Assembly (NCBI RefSeq): GCF_037975245.1
Contig: NC_092582.1
Location: 15,145,077-15,209,076 of the forward strand
Direction of reading: 5' to 3'
Length of the DNA: 64,000 nucleotides
Source of the DNA: Apostichopus japonicus
Lineage: Eukaryota; Echinodermata; Holothuroidea; Aspidochirotida; Stichopodidae
Shown one piece after another: positions 4,615-63,999 of this stretch; positions within the stretch are counted from its first letter, which is position 1, and the number at the start of each line of letters is the position of its first letter. Both the position numbers and the translations under genes were made by a program. The notes beneath the pieces were generated by a model. The model ran no database searches, was not told the DNA's origin, and saw only the letters and a program-made list of their open reading frames with translations.

Positions 4615-6633
4615 TTATCCAATTGGCAATTTGTGAACAGAATTTAGGCTAACCTTGTCGGTTACACTCTTGATTTGAAGAAACTGGTGTTAAAGAGTGG
4701 CTCAAATTGTTTGGTTTTCTTGCCTATGCGCTTTTAGCCTTTGTTAAGGCGTATCGGCCAATTTTTCTTTGCCAGTTTGAGCTGGGTCGATCCTGATTAT
4801 ATTCATCACGCTATAAGCGATTCGTTCCTGTGATTGCACCGGCCTCTGTAAAGCGTATGTAGAAAGGGGGAGGGAAATATAACAGCCGTAGCATTTCCTA
4901 TTTGTTATGTAGGGAGACTCATTTGCGTCGCTGAGCATGACTCAGCAGAGTCTAATGCGCTATCAAAAACATCATGCATTGGCACATCGTATCACACATC
5001 ACATGCATGGGTAGCATCTGTTCTTTACAGATACCCAGTAAACCCGACTGTAGGAACTATATAAGTATCTTCATCCCTTCGACGATAATTCGTGAATGGA
5101 GTATATGTAGAATCCTCACTAAAGCGTGTCGCTAGGGACATATAGCAGCTATTCCACGCGTTGAATCGAATCGAACATGACTTTGTATAATACAATAAAT
5201 TTGTTAGAGAAACTTTCAGACGACTTAGAAGAATGGGCAAACTTTGCTGTGATCGACTCAAAGTTTTGTAATAGAAAGTAGGTCATCTTTAACAAGGTAA
5301 ATAAACAGCTGACCGAGTCCATGAACATTTCAAGAGCATTTCTCCCTTAGAAGTATAACTTAAGAATTGTCGGTTTGCCTGGCAAGTGATAAGGAGAAGC
5401 CACAAGTTGAAATAGCCAAATCCGTACACGAAAAAGTAGGAAATGCGGGTAGGCCACAAGAAACAACTATATTAATTATTCATAAGACAACTTTTTAAAA
5501 TTTACTTCCATTTTTATGGAATAATTGAACCAGTTAAAGAAAGCTTAAACAACAAGAGTTAGTAACGAGCGAGCAGTTACTTTGCCTCATTTGTAAAACT
5601 GCTTAATGGCCTCCGATGTATCGATGAAGTTAACTAGATTTTATAGAAAGAAAAAAAATGCTTATAGGTAAATGTTAAATCAGATCGTTATGAAATTTAA
5701 GGAAACGTAAAGCACATTAGAGTTATAAGCTTGGATTTGTCAGAGATCAAGGAAAAGGGAGGGGCGAGAGATCTATATGAAGTAAACGACAAGTAATCAC
5801 AAAATTTCCTTTTTTGGGGGGGGGGGGTGGGGGCGGGTAAAACATTTTAATTGTATATCCTCATCATATTTTTGTTTTCGTTTTGCACGTTGAAAATTTC
5901 TTTAATTCTACCTTTAACGTGAACCTATATTGTGTAAAGAGACTTGTCTTAACCATATATAGAACATGAACATTTATTACTAGGTCATAAAGTATATAGT
6001 TGTTGGGAAAGAGGAATCATTTTTTTTTTCAATATTTTACATTTCGAAACTGTGGCACATTAGGTACCGAAAGACGAGCATGAAATTATAGACTTCTTAA
6101 TGATTAACTAATGCGTGTCAAAACCAAATCTATACCATATGATTCAACATATATTGACTATAGTTTTTATTAAATATTGTAAAACAGAAAATAATGATGG
6201 AATTCCAAGTTATACGGTTAAATCCATGCAATTTTTAATTAGTTTATTCATTTCAAGCTTGTGATTTATCCGTGTGAGTATATATGCAAGCAGTGTGCAG
6301 TGCAAACGGTACAGTGTTGTGCTGTATACTGAGTTCTACTGTCTTAAAATATTTTATAAAGTTTTTAAGATTACCATGATATCCAACGTCTAGATCCGAA
6401 AGGTTTAGTCTCTATTTCTAATTATATACAACGTTTAACAGAAATTTCACCGAGTGAAAGAAAAGAATATGCTAATAATATGTTTATGCACAAGAAAACA
6501 ATCGTTATGAGTTATAACCGCGTGCCTTAGTCCCTTTGCAGTCGTTTCGCTGTTCTCAAAAGCAGGTATACGACGATGACACAAAAAGAAAATTAATGCA
6601 AGCAGTTTAAGAGAAAAACATCAATTGACTGAG

Positions 6634-6663: not shown

Positions 6664-8208
6664 TCAATTGGAAAACTGTTTATTGGAGGAATTTTCAGCG
6701 TCTAATTCTTTCTTACAGAGTGGCGTGTCCCGGTCAGTTTGGGTCCGCAACTTGCGACGAAAACTAACGGCTGCTACAATCAGTATAAGCAAGACAACCA
6801 CACCTCCTCCTATCAAGGAGTATGGAATGTTAATTCGTAACACGGGGTTGGTGGGGATTTCCTTTGTAGCTGTGGACTCTTCCTCTTTCTCGCAAATTTC
6901 TTCAAAGTTCACATCTGTCACATTTTGTCCCTGATATTCCGCTGGAATTTGACACTGTACGTCATTCTCGATCGCATTCGTCAAGAACCATTCTTGTAAA
7001 GACTTCATGATACAATCACATGACCACATGTTGTCCTTCAAAATGAGGTCAAATTCGTACCTTCCTTTCAAGAATGTCTCAGGGAGACCAGTGAGGAGGT
7101 TATGTTGGATATTGAAATGTAGAATGTTGTCCAGACCATTCAACGACATGGCGTGAACAATAGTGATCATATTATGGTCAAGTTGGATCCATCTGAGCCT
7201 ATTATTCTGCAGAAACGCTTTGCTAGGCAGAGTAGCAATACGATTGAAAGAGAGAGATAGGTTTAAAAGTTTCGGCAGTCGTGCCAACAAAGAAACTGGG
7301 ACACTCGTTAGATGATTTCGGGACAGGTAGAGCATTACAAGATCATGAGTTCCTTCCCCGAAGAGATCACCGTCAACTGTGGATAGGAAATTGTTTTCAA
7401 CATTTAATAGGGTCAAGTTTTCGAACGCTGCCAAAGCAAACTTGTCTAAAGCTTCAAAATGATTATGTTCCAAACTTAAATATTTGCAAGAAAATTTATA
7501 GTTCGGGTTCAGCGTAGGCATCTGTCGCAACCCGTTTCCTGAGAGCGAAACTGTTTCAATACTTGCATGAAATTCCTCCCAATTTCCCAAATTTGTGCCC
7601 ATAATGCTGTTGTAGGATAGGTTCAATGTACGCAATTCGGTTACTCCTGCGAAGGCCTTCTCTTCTATAGTTTGAAGACCATTATCAGCCAGCAGAATGA
7701 CATTCAAATCATTGTTAAACGTAAAGACGTCCGAATGGATAACTGTGATCATGTTGCCGCTTAAGTCAATGTATGCAAGATTAGGTGCTAATCTCATCAT
7801 TGGAGATGGGACAACGGATAATCTGTTATCACTAAGGATCATTACAGAGAGACGTGTGTAATTCGTAGTGGATACCTGTTCCGTCAAAATGTGAATGCCA
7901 TTAGAGGACAATTCCAAATGCCTTAAGTAAGGCATGTTAGGCAACGCTATGGTTCCTTGCTGTAATTCAGGTATGGAGGTGTTCACTGCAGCGAATATAA
8001 ATACCCAGCTCAAAGATTGAATGAAGTTGAAGTCAGTCACATTTTCACCGTTGCAACGGATCTCTGGCAAACAAGGTGAACATTCGCACTGTTCTGGGCA
8101 ATCTCGTGGGACAAACCGACAACCGAGTGCACAAGCCATGAAGCAGAAGAGAGTGAAGACTAATAATTTCATCGTCGCTGGTTCTTGGAACGGATATGTA
8201 CGAGCCAT
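6664..8208 (-). CDS. LRR transmembrane protein, copy B (complete, single exon)
   Basis: An uninterrupted 514-codon ORF. The signal peptide is most convincing from the second Met (residue 13, MKLLVFTLFCFMACALGC). It is followed by an LRR N-cap with clustered cysteines (about 30-52), 12 LRRs of about 24 residues with LxxLxLxxN cores (about 97-392), an LRR C-cap starting MWSCDC (about 393-440), an acidic linker, one membrane span (about 462-482, GGGVVVLLILIVAAVS) and a 32-residue basic or polar tail. There is no TIR or kinase domain, so this is not a Toll-like receptor. Several NxT/S sites suggest glycosylation. TTTCAG and TTCAG stand just upstream of the ATG and may mark a 5'UTR intron. A type I LRR surface protein is secure; the ligand and pathway are unknown. 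Confidence 0.9.
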   Translation of the reverse strand: MARTYPFQEPATMKLLVFTLFCFMACALGCRFVPRDCPEQCECSPCLPEIRCNGENVTDFNFIQSLSWVFIFAAVNTSIPELQQGTIALPNMPYLRHLELSSNGIHILTEQVSTTNYTRLSVMILSDNRLSVVPSPMMRLAPNLAYIDLSGNMITVIHSDVFTFNNDLNVILLADNGLQTIEEKAFAGVTELRTLNLSYNSIMGTNLGNWEEFHASIETVSLSGNGLRQMPTLNPNYKFSCKYLSLEHNHFEALDKFALAAFENLTLLNVENNFLSTVDGDLFGEGTHDLVMLYLSRNHLTSVPVSLLARLPKLLNLSLSFNRIATLPSKAFLQNNRLRWIQLDHNMITIVHAMSLNGLDNILHFNIQHNLLTGLPETFLKGRYEFDLILKDNMWSCDCIMKSLQEWFLTNAIENDVQCQIPAEYQGQNVTDVNFEEICEKEEESTATKEIPTNPVLRINIPYSLIGGGVVVLLILIVAAVSFRRKLRTQTDRDTPLCKKELDAENSSNKQFSN

Positions 8209-8995
8209 TCTGAATTTTTATCTGAAATGCAGACAAATTTTCAAAACGTATTATAATACACTGCATTATTAAAGGGAATAAATCTAAATAAAGCCTCGCA
8301 TTGACTGTTGCCGTAACTCTCAAGGTGTGGAATTAGGTTCCGAAAACTATTACATTTTCAGACACATTATACAGTAAGTTCAACACTTGATTGCGTTTAT
8401 TCATCAATACAAGGGGACGGTGAAAAATCAGAAGCTTTTGTATACCTGAAAAGTCAGCAAAGTAAACCTTTGCAATATCACTTTTGAAATGTCTATACTC
8501 ACTGTGTATTTGTCATTATATTTTATAATTGAACTTACAGCAAAAGATAACAAAGATTCATGTAAATGATAATATATCACTTTCGTTAACAATATCAACC
8601 ATATATATTTAAGATTCTTCACCATTTTAGAATAGAAAAAGAGTACACACTGTGCATAATAGATGCTTCCTAAAATCGCACATTTCCTAAGATATTAAAT
8701 ACATTGATAGCTTTCCTCATTGTAGATCGAGTATATTAAAAAGATATGTTAGTCTAGCAGCGACATCATCAGTAGCAACAAATTAAGGGCAAGCCATTTC
8801 TATCACCAGTTCACATTTGCTATCTTATTTGGTTCAATTGTTGTCAGTCAAATAGCATTTGTAAAACGGTATTGTACACCTAAGTGGACACTACTTATAA
8901 ATTAGATAATCATGTTATTACAGAAAGCAACACTTTCCTTAATCCAATTGTGTAGGCCTCTTAAAGCAGATAATTGCGTTAAACCATTTATTAAT

Positions 8996-31700: not shown

Positions 31701-34700
31701 CAAGCAAGATATAGTAGTGTTGCACCCTCATTGCTAATATTGGCTTTTATCAATACAGATATTGCATATATACCTATAATCAATGCAATGCTAATAAATG
31801 GTTGAGACATATCTGTGGCCCAAGAATTGTTGTATGAGGATTTATTCAGTTATTTAATCAGTCCTGCTCTTGCTATGGAAAATTCTTGGATAATGTTGTA
31901 TCGGAAATACTTAAACCCTGCTTATGCTAAAGACAGACAAAAAACCTTACTCGCATGCCATTGCACTGTAATACATACTCATTTACTCATTCGTTTTTCC
32001 CATGCCTTATGTCGACGGTAAAAGATGCAATATATTCTGTATCATTCATTACAGATTAGTGCAACAGTTTGGGGTGGATTTTGAGAAGAAGATTGAGGGC
32101 TCTGGTGATCAGATCAACACCAGTGAGCTATCGGGCGGTGCAAAAATCAACCGGATATTCCACGAGCGGTATCCATTTGAAGTCGTTAGGATGGAGTACG
32201 ACGAAAAGGAGTTGAGAAGAGAAATCAGTTATGCTATTAAGAACATTCATGGTGTCAGGTACGTACATACTCAACTACATACCTTAGGAATGTTATCAAT
32301 GGTACAATTTTGTACCTTTTAGGATATATCAGGGCATATATCATGGGCATTATCGGCGAGTTAAAGGAATATCCAAGATTTACACCTCTCAATATCCTTG
32401 AATTTCTAACAACAGCGTTGTATCCTATGATCCGTCCTTCGCTTTTTTTTTCATTACCTATGGATATCCAACCTGCAGGGGGACAAAAACTATTATCCTA
32501 ACACACTGTAGCATATGCAAACTGGAGCCTATATTGCAATTTTTGCAAAGGTCCGTGATTATATTTTACCCCAGGCTCATCCCTGATATATATTCATGGT
32601 GTTTGGTGACTCAATTATTTTCCTTATTGGGGTATATCCATGCTAATAATAACATTGACATGGAATCTATGGATTATCACTGTCCTTTTTGTAATATGAA
32701 ATTATGAGTTGTGGGTGAAACCCTCAAACTACATGAGGATGCAAAATTACCAAAAAAAACTTCCAAACAGTATTGAAAGGAATTATTACACTATTTTGCT
32801 TTGATATTTTTTTTAACATGTTTCTATTCATGGTTTTGGTAATACCTTCTTGAAGATAATACTGCAGTTCATATGTGTAGTATTAGTGGCTGGTCAGCAA
32901 AGTTTTTTAATCCTTCAAGCGATACACAAGTTTGCATTGTTTGGTCAGGGATATATTGCATACGTTTCACTCAGTGTTAAATAAACTATTAGAATGCCCT
33001 ATCTGTGGAGAGGAACTTAGAAACGTCTTTTCCGTTCGTATCTCTGTAGTAAGTGTTTACTTTTCTTTGCAGAGTTGGCCTGTTTACTCCTGACATGGCC
33101 TTTGAGGCAATCACTAAGAAACAAATTGCCCGCCTGAAGGAGCCCTCCTTAAAATGTGTGGACATGGTTATCAACGAACTCAACAATGTAGTCAGAGAAT
33201 GCGGTGAAAAGGTCAGTACGTCGTAACCCTAACATATATTTTGAATGAATTCTACAAGGTCTTTTCGTGGCTGCGGTGGGTCATGGATGAGAGATATCTT
33301 TAGGTGTAGACAGAGAGGTTGTAATCTACATGTTGTCGCTGGAGAGGAACCTTTATATTTTTGGTGATCAAAGGACATGCATGGAAATGATAGTTCTATT
33401 ATTTGTTCCTGTAGTAATGAATATTAATGAATATTAATGAAGGTAATGAATATGTATAGTGTTCAAAGAATCATTCTTCATCAGACCAATATATTACATG
33501 ATAATTTGTCAATAATCATTAATGTTATCCACTTTTTCATGATGGGAGGGGAAGGGTCAACACTGAGGTTTAAAGAGATGGTATGGGGATGGCTTTACTT
33601 TTATAGCATCAGTGTTACCCATCATCTTATTTAGTTTAGACATTTCTTTTAAAATGACCTTTAAGGACCAGTTTAAGCTTGTTACCTGAAATCGTGAATA
33701 CTACCTCTTTGTGATAAATTTTTTGACCTATTTTAACATACCCTCTTGATCACAGATGGCGAGGTACCCTAGATTACGAGACGAAACCGAACGCATCATC
33801 TGCACGCACATAAGAGAGAATGAGCAACGGACAAAGGTCATGGTTGCATCTCTCATTGAGATTCAACTAGCCTACATGAACACAAATCACGAAGATTTCA
33901 TCGGATTTGCGAAGTAAGTCACGTCGCAGGAGAGCTCGCATTTCTGTGCTCGTTTATAATCTCTGGTCATGATAATATTGGCAATACCTGTGATATCTTA
34001 GGAGGTAGTAGAGAGGAAAGTTAAGGATGGGGAGGGGGTTGGAAAGATGAAGGAAAGGATGGATGAACTCAGAGATTGAATTAGTTGTCTGTAGTAAATC
34101 AATTATATTAGGCAAAGAGTAGATATTTTTGCATTTTGTTTACTAGCAATGAAATCTCTCTACTACCATCATTGGGTTTAATACTTGTTTACAATGGAGG
34201 ATTAATAGCAAAGGGAATGAGAAGGGGATGAACACAGAAAGAGGCAAAGTTTCTCTTCGATTATTATCAGAAACAATGGAAAGTTTGAAATGTGTTGTTT
34301 CATGTAACTCTGGGATTACATTCTCCTCAGCTGTTTGATCAAGTATTGGGCATATTTTCATCCTCTCGAGAGGTTGTCTGAATTATTTAGCCTTAGTATG
34401 TTTTCATCCTCCAAGACAAATTGAAACAGGATGCTCTTGACAATTCTAAAACAGGATACTGACATTTCCTTTGATTAATAAATATTTCAATGCTAGAGAT
34501 GACTCCCTACAAAAGTGAAAGCAACAAATGTTTTTTGTTTTTTCAAAATATTTGGGGTGAATAGGTCAAAGTAATCATGGGTCATAGAGAGGTACACTTC
34601 TGGAGACTGGTTGGCAAAAGCAAGGATCGTTTTATAGTATTCCACTCGTAAATGTGTCAACTCAGATACAAAAAAAAGTATGGCTAGATCCACTAGCAGA

Positions 34701-37298
34701 GAATAGATTCTTGATCGTCAAAATTTGAATTTGCTTCCAATCGGGATGGCAAGGTCAAACGGGGGCTCATCAAAATGATAAGTTCAACAGCTTTCCATCC
34801 GATGTATATATATATTTTTTTCCCAAAAAAAATTTAACGTGATCTTTCTCAATTTGTTAGTGCCCAAAATAAATCCGATCCTAATGTGGAGAAAAAGAAA
34901 CTTGGCAACCAGGTAAACAATAAGTCAAACCAGTTGTATGCTTTCTGTTCTGGTTTTGTTTGTTTGTTCCATCTGTGGTTCTGTGTGGTTTGATTTTGGG
35001 CTCTATTAACCTTACCTCCTGCGATACTGTATCTGTTTATCCAGCATGTTGCCCTTCGCACTACAGCAATTCTATCAGCATGGGTCGTTTTGAACTAACA
35101 AGTTTTGTCATCTTTTCGAACTGTTCATCTGGGGTGGGGTAGGGGCATCCTTCAAAAGTTTGAAGATACGAATAATAAACAAAGAAAATTAAAAAAACAG
35201 GCACAACCTGTTCTTTATAACAGAGTAAAAAGAGAGCATATTTGACTTTGTGGTGGAAGAAAGTAGAAAAGAAAGAAGAAAGTAATTTTGAATATTGAGG
35301 GGAGGAGAGAGAAGGAGGGGTGGGGGCGGTATTTCTCTTTGAAAAGAGTAGTGCAAAGTTTGCAAGAGCTTTGCATTTCTGATGTAACGGTGATGGAATT
35401 CTGGTGTTGGTTGCTTTTCATTCTGCTCTAACGATATTATAATTTTATATTATTTGGTACTAACCTTCCGTCCCTTTGTACTGCCATCCCGTCCAACCTC
35501 CCCCCCCCCCCCCTCCTTCCCAGACATGATAAAAAGGAACTTCATGGGTACCTCTGCCGGCTTTCATTATACCATGCTCATTTTGAAAGTACAGTCAATA
35601 ATGAATAAGATAGTAGTACTATCGGTCTAAATTGGGAAAAATTTTTCCCAGCGCCAACCAAAAGGAATCGAAAGAAAAATCACTTTCCTAACAAAACTTG
35701 TATAACCACTTGCAAGCCAATTTCTCTAGGGCCCTCTGAAAGACCAAATATGTGCTATGGAAGAGAAAGTTTACCTTGGGAAAGCGTGTTGTTATGGATT
35801 TGTGAGGAAAAATGACAAAGCAGATCCTGAAGTAGTTTTTTTTCCCTTTTTTGGGGGAAACCAGAGTACCTGGATTGACTCTATACATGAATGAATGGAA
35901 TATGGAGGGAAGGGGGGGGGTGGGGGGAATTCATCAATTTCATCATGATTGCTCAAAAAGTAGAGAAATACATTCAAAAGAAGATATAAACACAAGAAAC
36001 TGAACAAGTCAATTTTGGCACCAGATTATTTTTATGTGTATGGATGGTTCCTGTTTGATCCCCCACTCCCCCTCACCGGCCCCCCCCTTCTCTGTCGCCG
36101 TACCTCTCCTTGTATCCATCCTGGTAGTCGTGTTCTTTCCTTCTCTGTATCTGATTGGCCTGTCTGTCTCCTTGCACTCCCTGTGTATTATGTAGTGCGA
36201 CTGCCAGAGCCGCCCGTCAAACACCCAATGGCCCCAGCAAGCCAGCTACTCGGGCCACTAACCAGGTAAAAAAACCTTGTTTATCAGCAGTAACACATAG
36301 CCAGCCGAAAAGAACAGCATCTGCATGCATGTCACCCGCCGCCGCCACATTCCAAGTTTATAGAAGCCGACAAAATGTTCAGCTCTTCACTCTCTCACTC
36401 TCATTTCATGGATTTACATATGAACTTCCCCCCCCCCATCCCCACCCCCATTTCTTTTTCACAATCTCCTCATCGTTTGTTTTTTTTTTTCCATTCGCTT
36501 TGGTATTCATGTATTTATATTATAAAGCACTAAGCCTTTTAATCAGATAAAGTATTGACGTCATTTCTTCCTGGTCTTTAACACCCCCCCCCCCTCAACA
36601 CACGCAAAACAAAAAGAAAACAAGAAATATTTGTGCGATAGTCATACAACATTAATATTTTTGTTATTTTAAGGATGCAGGTTTTAACCCGGTGAGTTTG
36701 TGTGTCTGCGTCTGATCGCATTAGTGCTTTCCTGGTGTGCTTGTTTGAAGCCCCTCCCCTCCTCCCCTCTCTCCCCTGCCAAGTTTTATTTTCCAAGCCT
36801 CAGTCCTCTCCCTTTTCTCGTTCCTTGCACCCCTTGCCTTTTCCTTTACATTCAGTCCGTTTCGATTTGAGGTGAAATTCTAATTTATCATTGGAGTGAC
36901 CAGGGCTACCAAATTTTAACACTAGCCATTTTGTTTCTGGCAACTCATTACTTCTTGTAATCAGTGTCATTTCAGTTTATAAAGATTGTTTGCTTATAAA
37001 TTGTTCAAAAAAACATTTAAGTTTTATTTAAAAATATTAAAACATTTTGTTCAGCATGATTAAATCCTACCAGCAGTTTCCTAGTGCTCGCAACTGTCTT
37101 AATTTTTTATTTACTGCTTTTGTATTCAGTTCTTTAGTTATTCATTTTTGTGTGGATATTTTGTGGATATTCACATTATAGTTTAACAGTGTGATTTGTA
37201 GATCATAATCTGTAGCATTAGCATTGTTCAAAGTTTGAAGTGATTAATTTTGTGTGTTTTCTTTCTGCTCTCCTCTACCTATACTCTCCTCTATACAC

Positions 37299-37929: not shown

Positions 37930-40900
37930 CATATATATACTGCCATATTGCATATGCATGTATATGCAATCATGCATGCATAGGCAGAATGAAGCGTTTG
38001 ATTCCTACTGGAAACCCAAACCGACCCAGTTTGAACCAGCTGGACCTAATTCCATCATGAAACCAGACATCACTCAGACAGGGGTGTAAGATGCTGCTTT
38101 GAGAGATATTTTCCAAATTTATTGTTAAACTATTCTCGCGAAGAGAACACACTCAGATAAACACCCCACCCCCCCCCTGCCCCCCAAGATGGTCTTTCTT
38201 TCTTTGCTGCATTTTCCTTCAAATTGGACTGTCCAATGTCTTTGGTTTAAATATATGATTATTTCTCCTTTTCTTTTCCCACTGTCAAGCTCTAAGGAAG
38301 CAAAAGAAACTTTTTACACACACCTCACGTAGCACCAGGCTCTAATGTAGATCTTTTTGTGTTCAAAGACCAATTGTTTTTTTTTCATGGCAACTTTACA
38401 ATTTTGTTTCTGCAATGGATTTATCCAAACCACTTAAGCACGAGACACACCCTCCACTTTTTTTTTTCACAAAAATGAATTTAAATAAATTTTTTTTAAT
38501 GATTCTATTCCACTTTGAAAAGTATTTTGTTTTACGCAGAAAATATTTCTCTATAATTATTCATTGAACAATTTATTTGCATAGAAGAAGGAAATTGGAG
38601 ATTTATATGCAGTAAGAAGAGGAGAGTAATACTTTGACACATTTTTTTTTTGAGGGGGGGGGGGCACGAAATGACGAATGTATTCAAACACTGCTGAATG
38701 GAAGTTTGACGCCTTGTGGCCATTTTAGCATATCTGCACCTAGAGCTAATTTTTGCCCCCCCCCCCCCCGTATCTTTTATCCTCCCCAATTGTTCTCTCC
38801 TATATCTGATTATATACGAAGATGTGTTTTGCGAACAACTCTCATCCCTTTCATGATGATGTGAATCGAAATATGAAGTCTTACATTCAGACACTGAAAA
38901 CAAGAATGTTTGGAGCAAGCAAATTTATAGCTCACTATGGTATACAACAGGGATGGCAGAGCCCCCCCCCACATGTAGAAGTATAGAGGGGAGGGAGAGG
39001 GGATGGCAACCTTTGTCCTATGTGAGGTCAAGTCCCCCTCCCGAAGGTCATCACGTCTTTCAGAAGTGCCTTCTCACTGAAAAATGTTTTCTGTGATTTT
39101 TTTGGGCTATTTTTGGGTTTTTTTTTTCAATGCAAATTATCAGACTTGGCAGAATTGTGGGTGAAGGTGGGCAATTTTTTAGCCACCCCCTCCCCCAGCC
39201 AGCTCTGCTCTCCATGTACATGTGATTTGGTGAGTCATGTATTTGTCTATCACTTGACTAAATTTGAAATTATGACTTTGGAAAGATTAAAATATTAAAA
39301 AAAGCCATGTTAATTTTACCTCGTCAAATTTAGACTGTAAACTTTAAAACTTAAAGTCTGTTTTTTTCATCTATGAGCTATCTTTTGTAGAATTTCTGTT
39401 GAGGTTCTAAAGCAAATGCTTCAGTAAGGAGGCAATGTGATATTTATCTCACATAACAGAGATCGTACCTTTAAGTTACCTAGTCGCTTATCACTCATTC
39501 TTAATTTTTTTTCGTTTTTACGACAGAGCGCTCCCAAAGTAAGTCCCGTCCTGTGTGTCTCGTCCCTCATTTTTTTGATAATTTTTTTTGTTTTTGTTTT
39601 TTTCTCATCTACGGAAGACACACGTGTACGTGACAATTATACGCATAGCGTGACATTGCATCTCTGTACGTCGGTTCTTCGATTAATTTTTTTCTGTCCA
39701 TGCCTGCCTCGTGTAGCATTTCTCTAACATGGTGGAGCCTTGCATTATTAAAGAGGGGGATAGTTCTGGGATAAATTTATATACGACTATTAGCAGACAA
39801 ATAATAAAGTTATCCCCGAACTATCCTCTGATTATATAGTTACATTGACATCCATAAGCACATTCCATCTAACTGAAATGTATTAACATATTCTCATGTC
39901 AAAGGTCACATTCAACCTAATTTCTCTACCTCATATGTCATTTTTTTTTTTTTTTTCAATTCTTCAATTTTAATTTCTTCATTTGACAGAAATTTCTTCT
40001 TTTTCTTTTTTTTTTCAATTCTTTAATGAGTTGCAGTAAAAATGTCTCTGTTATCATGAGCTTAAAGCCATATTGTGATAACAGGTTTTAATAGTTATGG
40101 AAATATGAAATAAACTTAAAAAGAGTTTTCTGAAAGTTTATGAATGTAACTGGCAATGTGGCAGTGGGTGAATATAATGTGGGAAATAATCTGTCCACAA
40201 AGAGAAATATTATTCTTTAACAACAAAAACCACAAAAAATTGAAAAAAAAAGCATTTGGATTACAATCACAACAATACCAAGAGAACATCCCAACTGTTT
40301 GAAAGAGGAGAAATCAAAACGAAAATTGTCAGAAGAAAAAAACCATCTTTTTGATGAACATTTGCCATTGAATCAATTACTTTTAAATTCTTGAATGAGA
40401 ATATTGGGATTTCTGTTTTCAGCAGGAATATTTGTCTGCCTTGCATCTACACTGCCATCCCTTTCATTATTCCTCCCCACCACCCTCCCCAATCCCATAG
40501 GAGATTGTATTCTGTGAGTAACCTGTTGAGTGACAATACTACGCTACAATTAACACATATCATATCTCTAGCTTCATATTACATCTTTTGATTTTGTGTA
40601 TAACAGGGATTGGTTTTTTTAAGTCTAACCCACCCAAGGGTTCATCTGGCAAGATTCTTATGTGCCGGCTACTCTCTTTTTTCAATTTTTTTTTTACTCG
40701 TTTTTTACCCACGCATTCATGACCTTACATGGGCTTCCATGCATTTGAAGATCTATTCGTCTCTTCCGCTATCAGTCGTGCTGCCTGGTACACAGTAGAG
40801 ATACATTTAGTTGCAATTATGTGATGGCTTCTGTCATCATTTCTGCCGTTTTCACACATTCTGATCTTTGTTCGTCTATAACAGAAGCGTGCCCAAGTAA

Positions 40901-43900
40901 GTCCATAACTTATTACTGCCATTTATTATGGGTTCATGATGTTCATTCTCATCCACTTATATAAAAAAGAGCTTATACTTGCTTGTTTGGTTATATAATG
41001 TATCTTCAAGATGAATTCACTTGCTGTCATGTGACCTCACTAATTGCAATTCTATCTGTGAAATTCCCAAAAAATCATGTCACTGTGTTTTGTAGCTTAG
41101 GAACTTGCACCAAAGGTTTATAGAGACACCCCGCCCCCAGAAAAAAAAATGCGAACACACAACACTGCACCAAACTGATTCCTTATCCAATTTACGGGTC
41201 GTTAGAAATACCCTTTCGATAAATCCGCAACGTCCTCTAATTGACATCAGTAGGAACATGGTTGTGACATCACACTTGCACTTCATATGGACTCTCCACT
41301 ACATGGGGGGTCTGTTTCCACGGAAACATTTCTAGCCATTTAAATTGTGGTAATGATTCCGAACATTTTACCCACCATGAATGTTTCACCAAGGTAAATG
41401 ATTACGTAGTTTGGGATTTAACATGGGAGTGTTAGAGAAGTCATCGGTCAAGCACATACCATGATCGCAAGACATTGGTCACATGACCGCAAGACATTGG
41501 TCACATGACAAAATATTAGGTATCTATCTTGTACTATTCCTTCAAATTTTAATATGATTCAATGAATGAATGTATGGGAAAAGAGCAGAAGCTTGTTTTT
41601 CAAATGTAGCCATTTCTCTAATCTAATTACCTCTTTGCTTATTTTTCGGTTCTCTATTTTCAATATTTTTTGGATGCAAGGCTACTACTATTACTACAGT
41701 TATTTATTAATAATAGCCATTATAAATTGTTAAACAAAACCAAACTAGATTTTATTCTTCATCATTTGCTGCACTGTAAACATATATTCTAAACATTGTG
41801 ATCAAGAGTTATTACAACGGTGTGGTTGCCAATGAAGTAAACAGCATATAAATACAGGGGTACTTGTACGGCCTTCTTGAGATATTTCTAGTATGTTTGA
41901 AGAATGAATCTGTGAGAAAAGAACATTACAAGAAGCTTGTTTTCAATTGTAGCCGTTTCACTTAATCTAATTCTTTCTTTCTTTCTGTCTTTTTGTTGTT
42001 GTTGTTGTTTTGGTTCATTATTTTCAATATTTTGGATGCTAGGCTACTACTACTAATTTTATTTTAATATCCATCGGGAGATTTTGGTATATAATAGGGT
42101 TTTCTCACACCATGATACTTTCTAAATTGTTAAACATAACCAAAGTTTTTTATCGTCATCTGCCGAGCTGTGAACATTTTATAACATTGTGTTCAAAGAG
42201 ATATTAATAATGGTGTGGGTTTTCAATGAAGTATAAAATAGTATATACAGAGAGGTACACTAATACAGTGTTTTTGCTTTATGATTTTCCTGTGAAATAT
42301 TGTATTATAATTGTTTCAGGCTGTCTGCCATGTATTCTCCATGTTCTGGAATGGTTGAAAATATTGATATTTACAGCGTTAATCTAACAATTACTAAGCT
42401 AGGTACTGTAGTCTGCAAGGTTTTAAAGGGTGATATGCTACACATATTGATATGTACAGCATTAATAGAACAATCACTAAGTTAGATGGTCTGCAAGGTC
42501 TTAAGGGGTGATATGCTACACATATTGACATGTACAGTGTTAATCTAACAATCAAGCTAGGTACTGTAGTCTGCAAGGTCTTAAGAGGTGATATGCTCCA
42601 CATATTGATATGTACAGTGTTAATCACTAAGCTAGCTGGTCTGCAAGGTCTTAAGTGGCGATATGCTACACATATTGATATTTACTGTGTTATCTAACAA
42701 TCACTAAGCTAGGTGGTCGGCAAGGTCTTAAGTGGCGATATGCTACACATATTGAAATGTACAGCATTAATAGAACAATCACTAAGTTAGATGGTCTGCA
42801 AGGTCTTAAGAGGTGATATGCTCCACATATTGATATGTACAGTGTTAATCACTAAGCTAGCTGGTCTGCAAGGTCTTAAGTGGCGATATGTTACACATAT
42901 TGAAATGTACAGTGTTAATCTAACAATCACTAAGCTAGGTGGTCTGCGATAATTTGCCATTGTAAAACTATGACATCAAACCTGTTTGCCTCAAGATCGT
43001 TGATGGTACAATCTGTAACAACTTTAGGAAATGTTCCTCTTTTCATCTGTCAAAAATTACCCTGCACTACCCTAGAGCTGGTACAAGTCGCACAACAAAT
43101 AGCTCATCAAAATATTCACCTTTCTTTCTGCTTTTCTCCTTTTAAAAAGTTAAAGTGTAACTTGGAACCTTTAAAGATTCATCTGAATTGCCTCCCAGAT
43201 TTTTAGAATGCTAGAAAATTGCTAAAATGTTTACAAAAGCAAAAAATTTCTGGAGTTTTTGATATACAAGTGAAGTTATTGCCAGATAATTTAGGAGAGT
43301 TTAGTTGAGAATAAAATTATGTTAAAGAGTGGAACAAATGCTCTGAAAGGGTCAGTAAAATGCTTGTTAAAGTATTCATCATGAGTTGCCATTAAGTGAC
43401 TTCTAGCATATTGTGATTATCTTTTTAATTTCCTGTTGAGATTGTTAACTGTACAGCGAGGGGGTGTATTAACAAATACTTTATCAAAACTAAAATACTG
43501 TATTAAACACACATCATTTATGGTAACGGTTTGGTGCTTGTGACTCAAAAGAGTTACAACACCTTGGTCGAGCTTTATTAACCATATTCCAAATCCTTCT
43601 CAAGTTGTACTTATTCCTGGAAAAAATCTGGTGTAAATCACAGTGTCGTTTTTCAACTTATAACTCGTTCGTTTTGAAATGACCTTTGACTTTGACTTCC
43701 TTTCTCCTTCCTCAGGTGATTCGTAAAGGTTGGTTGAGCATGCATAATATCAGTTTCATGAGAGGCGGGTCGAGAGATTTCTGGTTCGTCCTCACCGCTG
43801 AATCTCTCTCGTGGTTCAAAGACGAAGAGGTAGGGACTCATCTCAAAACTTTTTAACCTTTTCAGATTTTTAGTTTTTGAAGGTTTTCTCGTGTCAAGTA

Positions 43901-46900
43901 CACTCTCTACGGTATCTTGCTGAAGTAGTTTTCAAGTATTTGTAGTATTTGAAAATTAAATCTTACCTCTCTGGAGATCCAAATCCCCCCTCCCCCCTCC
44001 TCCCTCCCACTCTCTCCTTCTCTCTCACACAAGGCTGCACCTTTGAGCAAGATTTCAATAGATATCTATGACACATTGTTTTAAGCCTACAGTAGTTCAC
44101 TTTAAAGTAAAAAGGACAAAAAACACCACGAGAAGTTAGTTTCAGGAGTTCTTTCTTAAACCTTATTTCCTGCTCCAGTTTTTAAATTTCCAGACTCGAT
44201 CTGCATCCAAATACTTCATTACTAGGAACTTGATTCATTACTTGGGACTTGTTTTGACAATCTGTGCTTGGTAATATACAGACACATTTCTTCTCATCCC
44301 CTTCCCCCCCCCACCTTATGATTCTTTAAGCTGTTCTTTTCTGAAACAGATCCATATTTTGAATTTCAAATTAGTAAGAAATTTGTTTGTTTGTTTTGTT
44401 GTGAAACAGGAGAAAGTAAAGAAGATTTAACTCTCTCTCTCTCTCTGTCTCGTGCCCCCACTTATCCATTAAACTGTTCATATTTGAAACATATTTTGAA
44501 TTTCATATTAGTAAGAGATTTCTTGGTTAAAAGGTTGTGAAACAGAATAAAGAAAAGACACCCCCCTCCCTTCTCTCTCTCTCCCTTCTATCCTTTAAAC
44601 TGTTTTTTTCTGAAATAGATCCATATTTTTCAAATTTTAGTGAGAGATCTGTTTATGTTTTTGTCTCGTGAAACAGGAGAAAGAGAAGAAGTACATGCTC
44701 CCCTTGGATGGACTGAGACTACGAGATGCGGAGTCCGGCTTCATGTCCAGGAGAAGTGCTTTTGCTCTCTTCATTCCCGACCAGAGGTGACTAGATTTGG
44801 GCAACTTTTTATTATTATTATTACACAGAGCAGTTATCACATACAGTACCACTGTCAGGGTGGTTTTAAATCTATATTAATCAGTGTATATTGTTGTGAT
44901 TGTCAATTCATTTATTTAAAAATAATCCTTCTGTCCTTCAGCGTGAATCATTTGCATTTCTGGTTAGATGACATCATATTTCATCTCTTGTCTCTTTTTA
45001 AACTCCACTCTGCTTAAAATTTGGCAAAGAAATGCTGAGATTTTATCGTATATTTCCTGATATATTAGTATACCCCCCAGTCTCCCTATTTGTAGGGGGG
45101 GGCGTGTGACTGTGCAAATCTTCCAGAAGAGTATTAACGTGAAAGACTTAATAGGCAGAACTTTTTGCATTGATTTGTAGTAGTGTGTCAAAGATGGTAC
45201 ATTTGAGTGGTAGGTTAATATTTTCTGTAGCTATTCTGGTCATCAAGTTATCCACCTTTTGACAATATTCTATGTGTCCGGAATGCTCTCATAAGACTAA
45301 AGCGATTCCTTCTCCTCCTCGACCTAACACCCATTTATGATGTCCAACACCAATCAGTTCTCCATAACGAAGAATTGTAATAGTGTACATTGTAAATATT
45401 TCAGTTGAGTTCATAGTTCATACCAATGTTAGCTCTTTTTGTTGAGTGTTTGTGTTGCATCTGAGAAACTGAAACAATGGTCTGTTTGCTAGTTAGGTAA
45501 TTAAGTAGTTCAACCACTTTTATCGATGACCCTTGGATGTTTCCAATTTCCTCATCTCCACAACCACTGCAACCACTTTTTGTGTTGCATCTGAGGAACA
45601 GAAACAATGGTCTGTTTGCTAGCTAGGCTATTAAGTAGTTCAACCACTTTTATCGATGAACCTCAGATGTTTCCAAGTTCACTCTTTCCACAAAAACAAA
45701 AACCAAAAAAAATTGTAGTGTTATAATAAAAAATAAACACCAGTGTTTTGTTTGTAATAATCTGCTGGTATCGCAGTGAATGTTGCAGCTGAACTTTACC
45801 CTTTCGTAAATTCGTAAATTAGTCTGCAAAAGATCATCTTGATTAAACTTCTCGGTTGTTTTGTTGGATATTTTCAGTCTTCTTTTTTGACTAAAATGAG
45901 ATTTTCTTTCTCTCATGTCTATACAGGAATGTATACAAAGATCACAAGCAGTTGGAACTGTCTTGTGATACAAATGAAGAGATGGATAGTTGGAAAGCTT
46001 CCTTCCTCCGGGCTGGAGTGTACCCCGAGAGGGCTAAAGAGGCAAGCGAGGGCGATGCTGGGGTGAGACAAAAGGCTATATTTTGTTCTTTTTTTTTAGA
46101 GAGTCAAAAGGAGTCCTTTTCATCTTCGCTCCAAAATTGCACAAAATTCCGTATGTTTTGAAATGTTCCCATTGGACATGGGAATCAGGTTACTATAATC
46201 AATTGTGGAATTGAATTTTGTCACAGTAAGAAGTTTCCAACCCCTCCTCCCCTTCCCCCCCCCCCACTCTCTATTGCTTCCCCTGCTGTTTTTTAGAAAA
46301 TCAAGGTCGTTTGGTTCCTCATGTTGGACAAGTACTGTGGTAACGCTTTAAATTCCAAAGGATTGGCATTTCAAAATATATAATTTAAACAAATTTTCTG
46401 ACTTCCTGGTCCATCTTTGTGTGATCCTCGAGGTCAGACTTCAACTTCTTTTAGAGAACTGCTGAATTAGTCCACAAAAGTAGCATTTGTCTAAAAAATA
46501 CCTAAAAAAAAAAAAACATTTTCCGGTGCCCGAGCATTTCAATCTTTCTCACCATTGTGCGTAGACTGATTCCATATTAATATACAAGCTAACCTTAAGG
46601 ATCACGACAGAATGCTTCTTACCGTAACCCAGGGTTACCTTCAAAAACCTTTCTGAAGACTTATCTGTTACTTGAGTCAATTATTTGTCAAATCTGTCCA
46701 CGATATCATCCCAACCTCTTCCTGTTCCTTGCCTCATCTGCAACTGTGTGAATCATATTCTGTTTTTTTTAATTTTATTTTTATCTTTTAATTTTTTTTT
46801 TTTTTTAGACCCAGGACGTTGGATCGATGGACCCCCAGCTGGAGCGTCAGGTCGAAACCATTCGTAACTTGGTGGATTCTTACATGGGTATCATCAGTAA

Positions 46901-59009: not shown

Positions 59010-59235
59010 TCTGACAAGTGGATAAGGTGAATCCCGAAGGCGGGCGGTCCCCCTCCTCCTGACAGGTGGATAAGGTGAGTACCGAAGGGGAGACAGGGGA
59101 GAGGTGTGGACAAGGTGATGTCGCCGCCCCCTCCCCCTGACAAGGTAAAGGCGCGGACAAGTGGAGTTCGCTGCCACCCCTCCCCCCTGACAAGGTTCAC
59201 GCGCGGACAAATGGAGTTCGCCGCCACCCGTCCCC
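59010..59235. repeat. GC-rich minisatellite
   Basis: Four to five units of CTGACAAGGT...GCGGACAA(G/A)TGGAGTTCGC with CCCCTCCCCC linkers, about 45-65 bp each. GC content stands out from the surroundings. Confidence 0.7.
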
Positions 59236-63474: not shown

Positions 63475-63999
63475 CTAGACCCATTTAGAAAAGGTTTTTT
63501 TTAATGGAATGAGACTAAGTAGTAACAATTGTGAATACAGAAAGGGTTTGGTTTTTGAGTAGTGAGTTGTTGCGACTTTGTATTTCAGGGGGAGGTCTTC
63601 AATCAAAGGGTCGTTCTCGAGGTTGTTTTTGTGTAACTTGGTGTTGAATTCTTCAAGTTGGGTGAAAGTAGATTTTGTGTTTCCTGCACGGAGAACGTAC
63701 AAAGTAGCAATATAGGTAGGGATTTTGAGTGCGAGTCGATAGCTGTGGTGTGGATTAATTTGTTTATTGGGATTAGAGATGGTAAGCAGGGAGATGCTCC
63801 CGTAACTGAGAATCGGTTTTACTTTGGATTTATAGATTTGGATAATGGTTTTCGGAGGGAAGTTATATTTTTGTGAGAGGATTTGAATGGATTTAAGTTG
63901 GGACCAGCAGCGTCCTGCAGTTCTGTTACAATGTAGATCAAACGATAATTTGCTATCGAAAGTGGTACCGAGGAAGGTTGCATTAGGAGTAGCAGTGAT
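63475..63999 (-). CDS. Non-LTR retrotransposon reverse-transcriptase ORF, C-terminal part
   Basis: The minus strand is open for 174 codons from the window edge to the stop at 63477-63475. Reading inward it contains FLGTTFDSKLSFDLHCNRTA, GRCWSQLKSIQ, PPKTIIQIYKSKVKPILSYG and TFTQLEEFNTKLHKNN. The FLGxTFDxxLxFxxH and YKxxVxPILxYG patterns are typical of the region after the RT catalytic core in Jockey/I/CR1-type elements. It has no internal stop, so the insertion may be fairly young. It lies in the same orientation as SRP68, probably within an intron of it. Confidence 0.75.
   Translation of the reverse strand: MTATPNATFLGTTFDSKLSFDLHCNRTAGRCWSQLKSIQILSQKYNFPPKTIIQIYKSKVKPILSYGSISLLTISNPNKQINPHHSYRLALKIPTYIATLYVLRAGNTKSTFTQLEEFNTKLHKNNLENDPLIEDLPLKYKVATTHYSKTKPFLYSQLLLLSLIPLKKTFSKWV

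Follow-up and report, generated by a model that had tools for sequence, protein, structure and literature searches.

Two 12-nucleotide candidate exons that share an intron of the one classical dynamin gene we detected in a sea cucumber genome are, to judge from sequence, probably genuine alternative cassette microexons that were generated by a short local duplication. An initial annotation had described the pair as in-phase microexons, each flanked by ACAG and GTAAGTCC, that encode SAPK or KRAQ just before VIRKGW at the position of the vertebrate GEIL/DEIL insert, and this description of the sites agrees with what we found.

The dynamin gene and its 12-nucleotide exon candidates

The + strand of the window, the 64-kb stretch of Apostichopus japonicus DNA analyzed here, carries one dynamin gene. 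Its exons were placed by tblastn with a DNM1 probe, resulting in a model of 18 exons (13574-48965) that is translated without stop codons and does not include the end of the PRD. With the first candidate microexon included, Pfam assigned Dynamin_N to residues 34-207, Dynamin_M to 215-501, PH to 520-621 and GED to 649-738. A PH-GED query against the whole assembly (671,581,487 bases in 35 contigs) returned seven matches, six of which are exons of this same gene; the seventh, on contig C20, shows 35% identity and covers the GED part only. Therefore, one classical dynamin gene is found in the A. japonicus genome. In viral and prokaryote collections, where little was expected, tblastn found no dynamin relatives among 4 viral and 30 genome pattern stretches, and no title or shown abstract among the literature matches listed dealt with echinoderm dynamin splicing.

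Around the site of interest, constitutive exon 10 (33756..33913, +; equivalent to vertebrate exon 12), placed by tblastn and the spliced model, ends with HEDFIGFA followed by AA in phase 2, and exon 11 (34861..34912, +; 52 nucleotides, equivalent to vertebrate exon 13) leads from phase 2 to phase 0 and ends with KKKLGNQ. Constitutive exon 12 (43716..43829, +; phase 0), supported by tblastn, Pfam and the spliced model, starts the PH domain with VIRKGW. The phase-0 intron separating NQ of exon 11 from VIRKGW of exon 12 is 8.8 kb in length. A block of direct repeats with spacings of mostly 70-83 and 148-150 nucleotides occupies positions 42354-42998 of the same intron.

Both candidates lie in this intron, AGCGCTCCCAAA (ME1, encoding SAPK) at 39527..39538 and AAGCGTGCCCAA (ME2, encoding KRAQ) at 40885..40896, each on the + strand, in phase 0, between ACAG and GTAAGTCC, and with a single occurrence in the window. 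Splicing ME1, ME2 or both into the 18-exon model kept the frame with no stop codon, and placed the encoded residues directly before VIRKGW in the predicted products LGNQ-SAPK-VIRKGW, LGNQ-KRAQ-VIRKGW and LGNQ-SAPK-KRAQ-VIRKGW. The junction predicted upon skipping both, from exon 11 to exon 12, is CTTGGCAACCAG-GTGATTCGTAAA, and those predicted upon inclusion are CTTGGCAACCAG-AGCGCTCCCAAA-GTGATTCGTAAA for ME1 and CTTGGCAACCAG-AAGCGTGCCCAA-GTGATTCGTAAA for ME2. Acceptor scores of 8.6 (ME1) and 6.8 (ME2) and donor scores of 8.0 (ME1) and 8.8 (ME2) are inside the range of the remaining exons of the gene.

Vertebrate neuronal microexons are in-frame cassette exons of up to 27 nucleotides and carry an SRRM3/4-type UGC element a short way 5' of the acceptor. 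The structural features of cassette microexons are present in both candidates, which are no longer than 27 nucleotides, have near-consensus AG/GT sites and keep the frame whether included or skipped. They resemble the neuronal programs as small in-frame cassettes, but may differ from them in that no TGC lies within 40 nucleotides upstream of either acceptor: the nearest TGC is at −110 for ME1 and −41 for ME2, and the 150 nucleotides upstream contain one (ME1) and five (ME2) copies of this SRRM3/4-type motif, with 2.0 expected. Within 150 nucleotides, ME2 is followed downstream by nine YCAY (2.9 expected) and four TGC (2.0 expected) motifs; there is also a downstream TGTNTGT for ME1 and a downstream ACTAAY for ME2 (one each, 0.1 expected), and counts of the remaining splicing-factor motifs were near expectation. 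All of these excesses are to be read against the many motifs tested. No known RNA family reached its gathering threshold in the window, and no dynamin microexon is mentioned in the available portions of PMC12626424 or PMC9741552.

Some further features of the window and the genome were recorded. Two minus-strand frames for leucine-rich-repeat proteins, at 2-1480 (running off the left end of the window) and 6667-8217, are 81% identical over 463 aligned residues, which suggests a tandem duplication. On visual inspection, a minus-strand open frame at 63478-63999 resembles a portion of a LINE-type reverse transcriptase; it matched no Pfam family at E 0.001. The mitochondrial genome is contig C35 (16,099 bases); AAA in its COX1 stands at positions where a solved COX1 chain has asparagine, in line with the echinoderm/flatworm code, and frames identified by eye as ND1 and ND2 share the strand of COX1, an order known from sea urchins and sea cucumbers rather than starfish. 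Pieces of COX1 were also seen on the minus strand of contig C29 (G000:C29:14745-31219) and are possibly nuclear copies or assembly pieces.

The insert site compared with vertebrate dynamins

The insert in vertebrates is a 12-nucleotide phase-0 exon, which in DNM2 (exon 13b) spells GEIL. The site in the sea cucumber gene corresponds residue for residue to DEIL of dynamin-1, as the four-residue insert occupies residues 516-519 of the model and DEIL likewise occupies 516-519 in chain 6dlu_B. In the five phmmer alignments shown, all of them to dynamin-1 chains, SAPK stands opposite DEIL without gaps from KMARYP through the PH domain. Gene family, insertion point directly before VIRKGW and insert length of four residues are thus common to the candidates, dynamin-1 DEIL and DNM2 exon 13b; by contrast, two candidate exons are present here and one there, SAPK and KRAQ replace GEIL and DEIL, and the sea cucumber exons are predicted from sequence. 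Neither peptide resembles DEIL, and four residues are too few for similarity to be judged. A literature search for the dynamin insert 'GEIL' retrieved no paper title or shown abstract on it.

That the DNM2 insert is alternatively spliced, as the initial annotation had stated, is borne out by the available text of PMC9652393, which places exon 13b between exons 13 and 14. The further proposal that a duplicated microexon elaborates this switch by offering a choice of inserts holds for the position and, probably, for the duplicated unit; however, SAPK and KRAQ are unlike DEIL, and the two inserts could be used in frame jointly as well as singly. The same text reports that 13b was not found together with exon 12b in mouse and that splicing affects Golgi targeting of DNM2. 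Muscle exon 12b is likewise an alternative insert in the stalk-PH linker, with 10 residues added at an FAN/AQQ junction one exon upstream, as read from the primers in that part of PMC9652393. At the level of 12b, the sea cucumber candidate is a 70-nucleotide replacement exon (see below), whereas DNM2 12b is an added exon.

DNM1 and DNM2 also possess the paired alternative exons 10a/10b, which are mutually exclusive and encode part of the middle domain. A second middle-domain exon of this kind was sought in the sea cucumber gene and rejected, given that two probes gave a single strong match (33077-33214, E 1e-19 and 1e-20) and that all remaining matches in the same search had E values of 0.06 or worse. 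The portion of PMC2916854 available suggests that exon 10a is possibly unique to vertebrates.

Rarity and probable kinship of the twin microexon candidates

The initial annotation had noted that the twins resemble each other over exon plus donor, and the resemblance in fact reaches further upstream. The best local alignment spans about 60 columns, from just under 40 nucleotides upstream of the exon through donor position +8, delimiting two proposed duplicated units (39487..39546 and 40845..40904, both +) that each comprise a pyrimidine tract, ACAG, a 12-nucleotide exon and gtaagtcc. Its score was 43, compared with a maximum of 31 in 300 shuffles. When ACAG and GTAAGTCC were held fixed and only the intron and exon parts were shuffled, none of 3000 shuffles reached 43 (maximum 37). 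Unit homology therefore extends beyond the shared splice signals, making local duplication likely, and the claim of a duplicated microexon is upheld to that extent. Taken separately, the intron parts are modestly similar (p 0.002 with base shuffling and 0.015 with order-1 shuffling), and the exons alone gave p 0.022. Speaking against kinship, the intron part of ME1 aligns better with the tract that precedes the exon at 46815 (score 30) than with its counterpart at ME2 (24); that of ME2 scores at most 20 against the other acceptors of the gene. Among 1301 AG-ended pyrimidine-rich control 40-mers, the twin score was reached by 7 for ME1 and 1 for ME2; as the control set still contains the sites of the twins themselves in shifted form, more weight was given to the fixed-signal shuffles.

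Aligning the exons with gaps reveals two opposite indels, an extra base at the start and a missing one further in, yet both copies measure 12 nucleotides; we infer from this that a duplicated exon unit may have been under pressure to remain a multiple of three. A branch site could plausibly be aligned in both copies (TTCTTAAT and TTCTGAT). The encoded SAPK and KRAQ show no likeness to each other. No third copy of the unit was found in the window, the next score among the best 40 windows being 31 (46741-46781 and 5821-5851). The regions 39460-39570 (ME1) and 40800-40930 (ME2) each had one match in a genome search that ignores simple repeats and highly frequent words. As either flank has this single match, the twins' derivation from a transposon is unsupported. 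Searches combining terms for duplicated microexons found no paper.

The pattern ACAG-N12-GTAAGT occurs twice on the two strands of the window, both times on the sense strand of the 8.8-kb intron, against an expectation of 0.18 (two were reached in 1 of 100 shuffles), and it was absent from both strands of 20 further 10-kb samples of this genome (400 kb in all). We also scored candidates with a splice-site matrix, whose thresholds were set post hoc so that both twins just pass, and whose figures accordingly serve as a guide. Under this matrix, the intron contains two open candidates of up to 18 nucleotides with a length divisible by three, compared with a mean of 0.09 in order-2 Markov copies of the intron (0 of 300 reached two), two in 96.5 kb of real window sequence (a 6-nucleotide and a 9-nucleotide pair) and none in 400 kb of genome. 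For candidates of up to 60 nucleotides, three are present in the intron, where 0.24-0.27 were expected from real-sequence controls (three in 96.5 kb of window and 11 in 400 kb of genome). Looser thresholds gave four open candidates on the intron sense strand and one or two on the antisense strand.

These comparisons bear on the possibility that the 12-mers are not exons at all, but AG-N12-GT pairs that arose by chance in an intron rich in T. Pairs of equal or better quality do occur elsewhere in the window, such as the 6-nucleotide AG...GT pair at 6804-6809, with a splice score similar to or above those of the twins, and the 9-nucleotide pair at 59066-59074 (+; VDK), with strong splice scores and a location outside the modelled dynamin exons; neither pair has a known role. 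However, two candidates in 8.8 kb stand against two of up to 18 nucleotides in about 496 kb, and chance would also have to account for the exact insert position, the correct phase and the similarity of the twins, so that we regard it as improbable. It is also rather unlikely that just one twin is a used microexon, and that its copy has decayed or was never used and merely bears remnants of splice signals. Duplicates need not stay functional, the ME2 acceptor is the weaker of the two (6.8 vs 8.6), and the two peptides are unrelated. By contrast, consensus splice sites, a length divisible by three, the phase and an open frame have been kept in both copies despite divergence of the exons, and the indels appear to compensate each other.

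A different question is that of origin, namely whether the twins and the vertebrate DEIL/GEIL microexon are orthologous, going back to a deuterostome ancestor, with the duplication occurring in this lineage; such an origin is compatible with both twins being genuine microexons. Sharing of gene family, insertion point and four-residue length speaks for such descent, which we nevertheless hold to be doubtful, as there is no sequence likeness to DEIL and as a study cited in PMC9741552 found no microexon common to mouse and fly, indicating that deep conservation is not to be assumed. The most probable reading is that both twins are alternative cassette microexons derived from a local duplication.

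Further exon candidates and possible splicing control of the stalk-PH linker

Additional candidates missed by the initial annotation lie in the same intron. An open 70-nucleotide candidate, exon 11' (36196..36265, +), agrees with exon 11 in its phases and lies between a TAG acceptor and a gtaaaa donor; the junctions predicted from it start with ACTAACCAG. Using exon 11 and exon 11' together introduced 17 stops into the spliced model and using neither introduced 10; because both or neither breaks the frame, the two would be usable only as alternatives, as is typical of a mutually exclusive pair with a frame-locked choice. The candidate has a GC content of 64%, compared with 44% in its flanks, and would encode a linker rich in Ala, Thr, Pro and Arg. 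Comparable open candidates numbered 9 in 90.8 kb of the window and 29 in 400 kb of control sequence, none of which (0/9 and 0/29) ends with NQ; without regard to the NQ end, such candidates are common (0.7-1.0 per 9.8 kb). Four others with the same phases are open in this intron region (35067-35133, 39064-39166, 39199-39229 and 39460-39538), and the first of these, 67 nucleotides in length, has splice scores (7.8 and 8.0) above those of 36196-36265 (3.6 and 7.2). The matching ends and the GC content are thus what could mark 36196-36265 as an exon. Weaker microexon candidates are an 18-nucleotide one encoding DAGFNP (36674..36691, +; phase 0, donor gtgagt), which is open, divisible by three and was spliced into the model, and a 27-nucleotide one encoding LCSPCTCDL (39203..39229, +), which is open and divisible by three and stands outside the spliced model. 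Given the 70-nucleotide and the further small candidates, splicing control may extend over the entire stalk-PH linker instead of being confined to one four-residue switch.

We infer that the twins are used in transcripts, are regulated and affect the protein, and a possible course is as follows. One microexon would have been duplicated locally together with its pyrimidine tract and donor. Depending on whether one copy, both or neither is included, the protein would then carry SAPK, KRAQ, the two in succession or no insert, starting at residue 516 in what would be the flexible stretch that joins the stalk to the PH domain. According to a review (PMC12550548, as far as available), stalk and PH domain are connected by flexible linkers, which permit regulatory PH-stalk contacts. 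Either SAPK or KRAQ would make the linker four residues longer and place one or two basic residues immediately ahead of the PH domain, and together with a possible choice between exon 11 and the 70-nucleotide exon 11', splicing would set both the length and the charge of the linker. In the accessible text of PMC9652393, the 12b peptide of DNM2 lies near the autoinhibitory stalk-PH interface, and DNM2 with 12b assembles into larger oligomers and shows increased lipid-stimulated GTPase activity. By analogy to mammalian 12b and 13b, the sea cucumber inserts would be expected to shift the PH-stalk autoinhibitory contact or the membrane preference, and a shifted contact could alter self-assembly, lipid-stimulated GTPase activity or the target membrane. 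A more extended and speculative version, to which we give a low probability, is a combinatorial linker in which the choice between exon 11 and exon 11' (52 or 70 nucleotides) is multiplied by up to four independent cassettes (18, 27, 12 and 12 nucleotides), and up to 32 in-frame forms differing in length and charge would take the place of vertebrate paralogue diversity (DNM1, 2 and 3).

The stalk-PH linker may accordingly be a splicing hot spot that tunes dynamin autoinhibition; most centronuclear-myopathy mutations of DNM2 fall at the neighbouring autoinhibitory interface, according to the part of PMC9652393 available. The twins would also exemplify exons whose small size lets them escape ordinary gene prediction. 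If an invertebrate with a single classical dynamin indeed varies this linker by means of a duplicated microexon and a replacement exon, the stalk-PH linker would represent a recurrent target of splicing evolution, and an ancestral origin of the four-residue insert could be tested against a convergent one from one intron aligned across deuterostomes.
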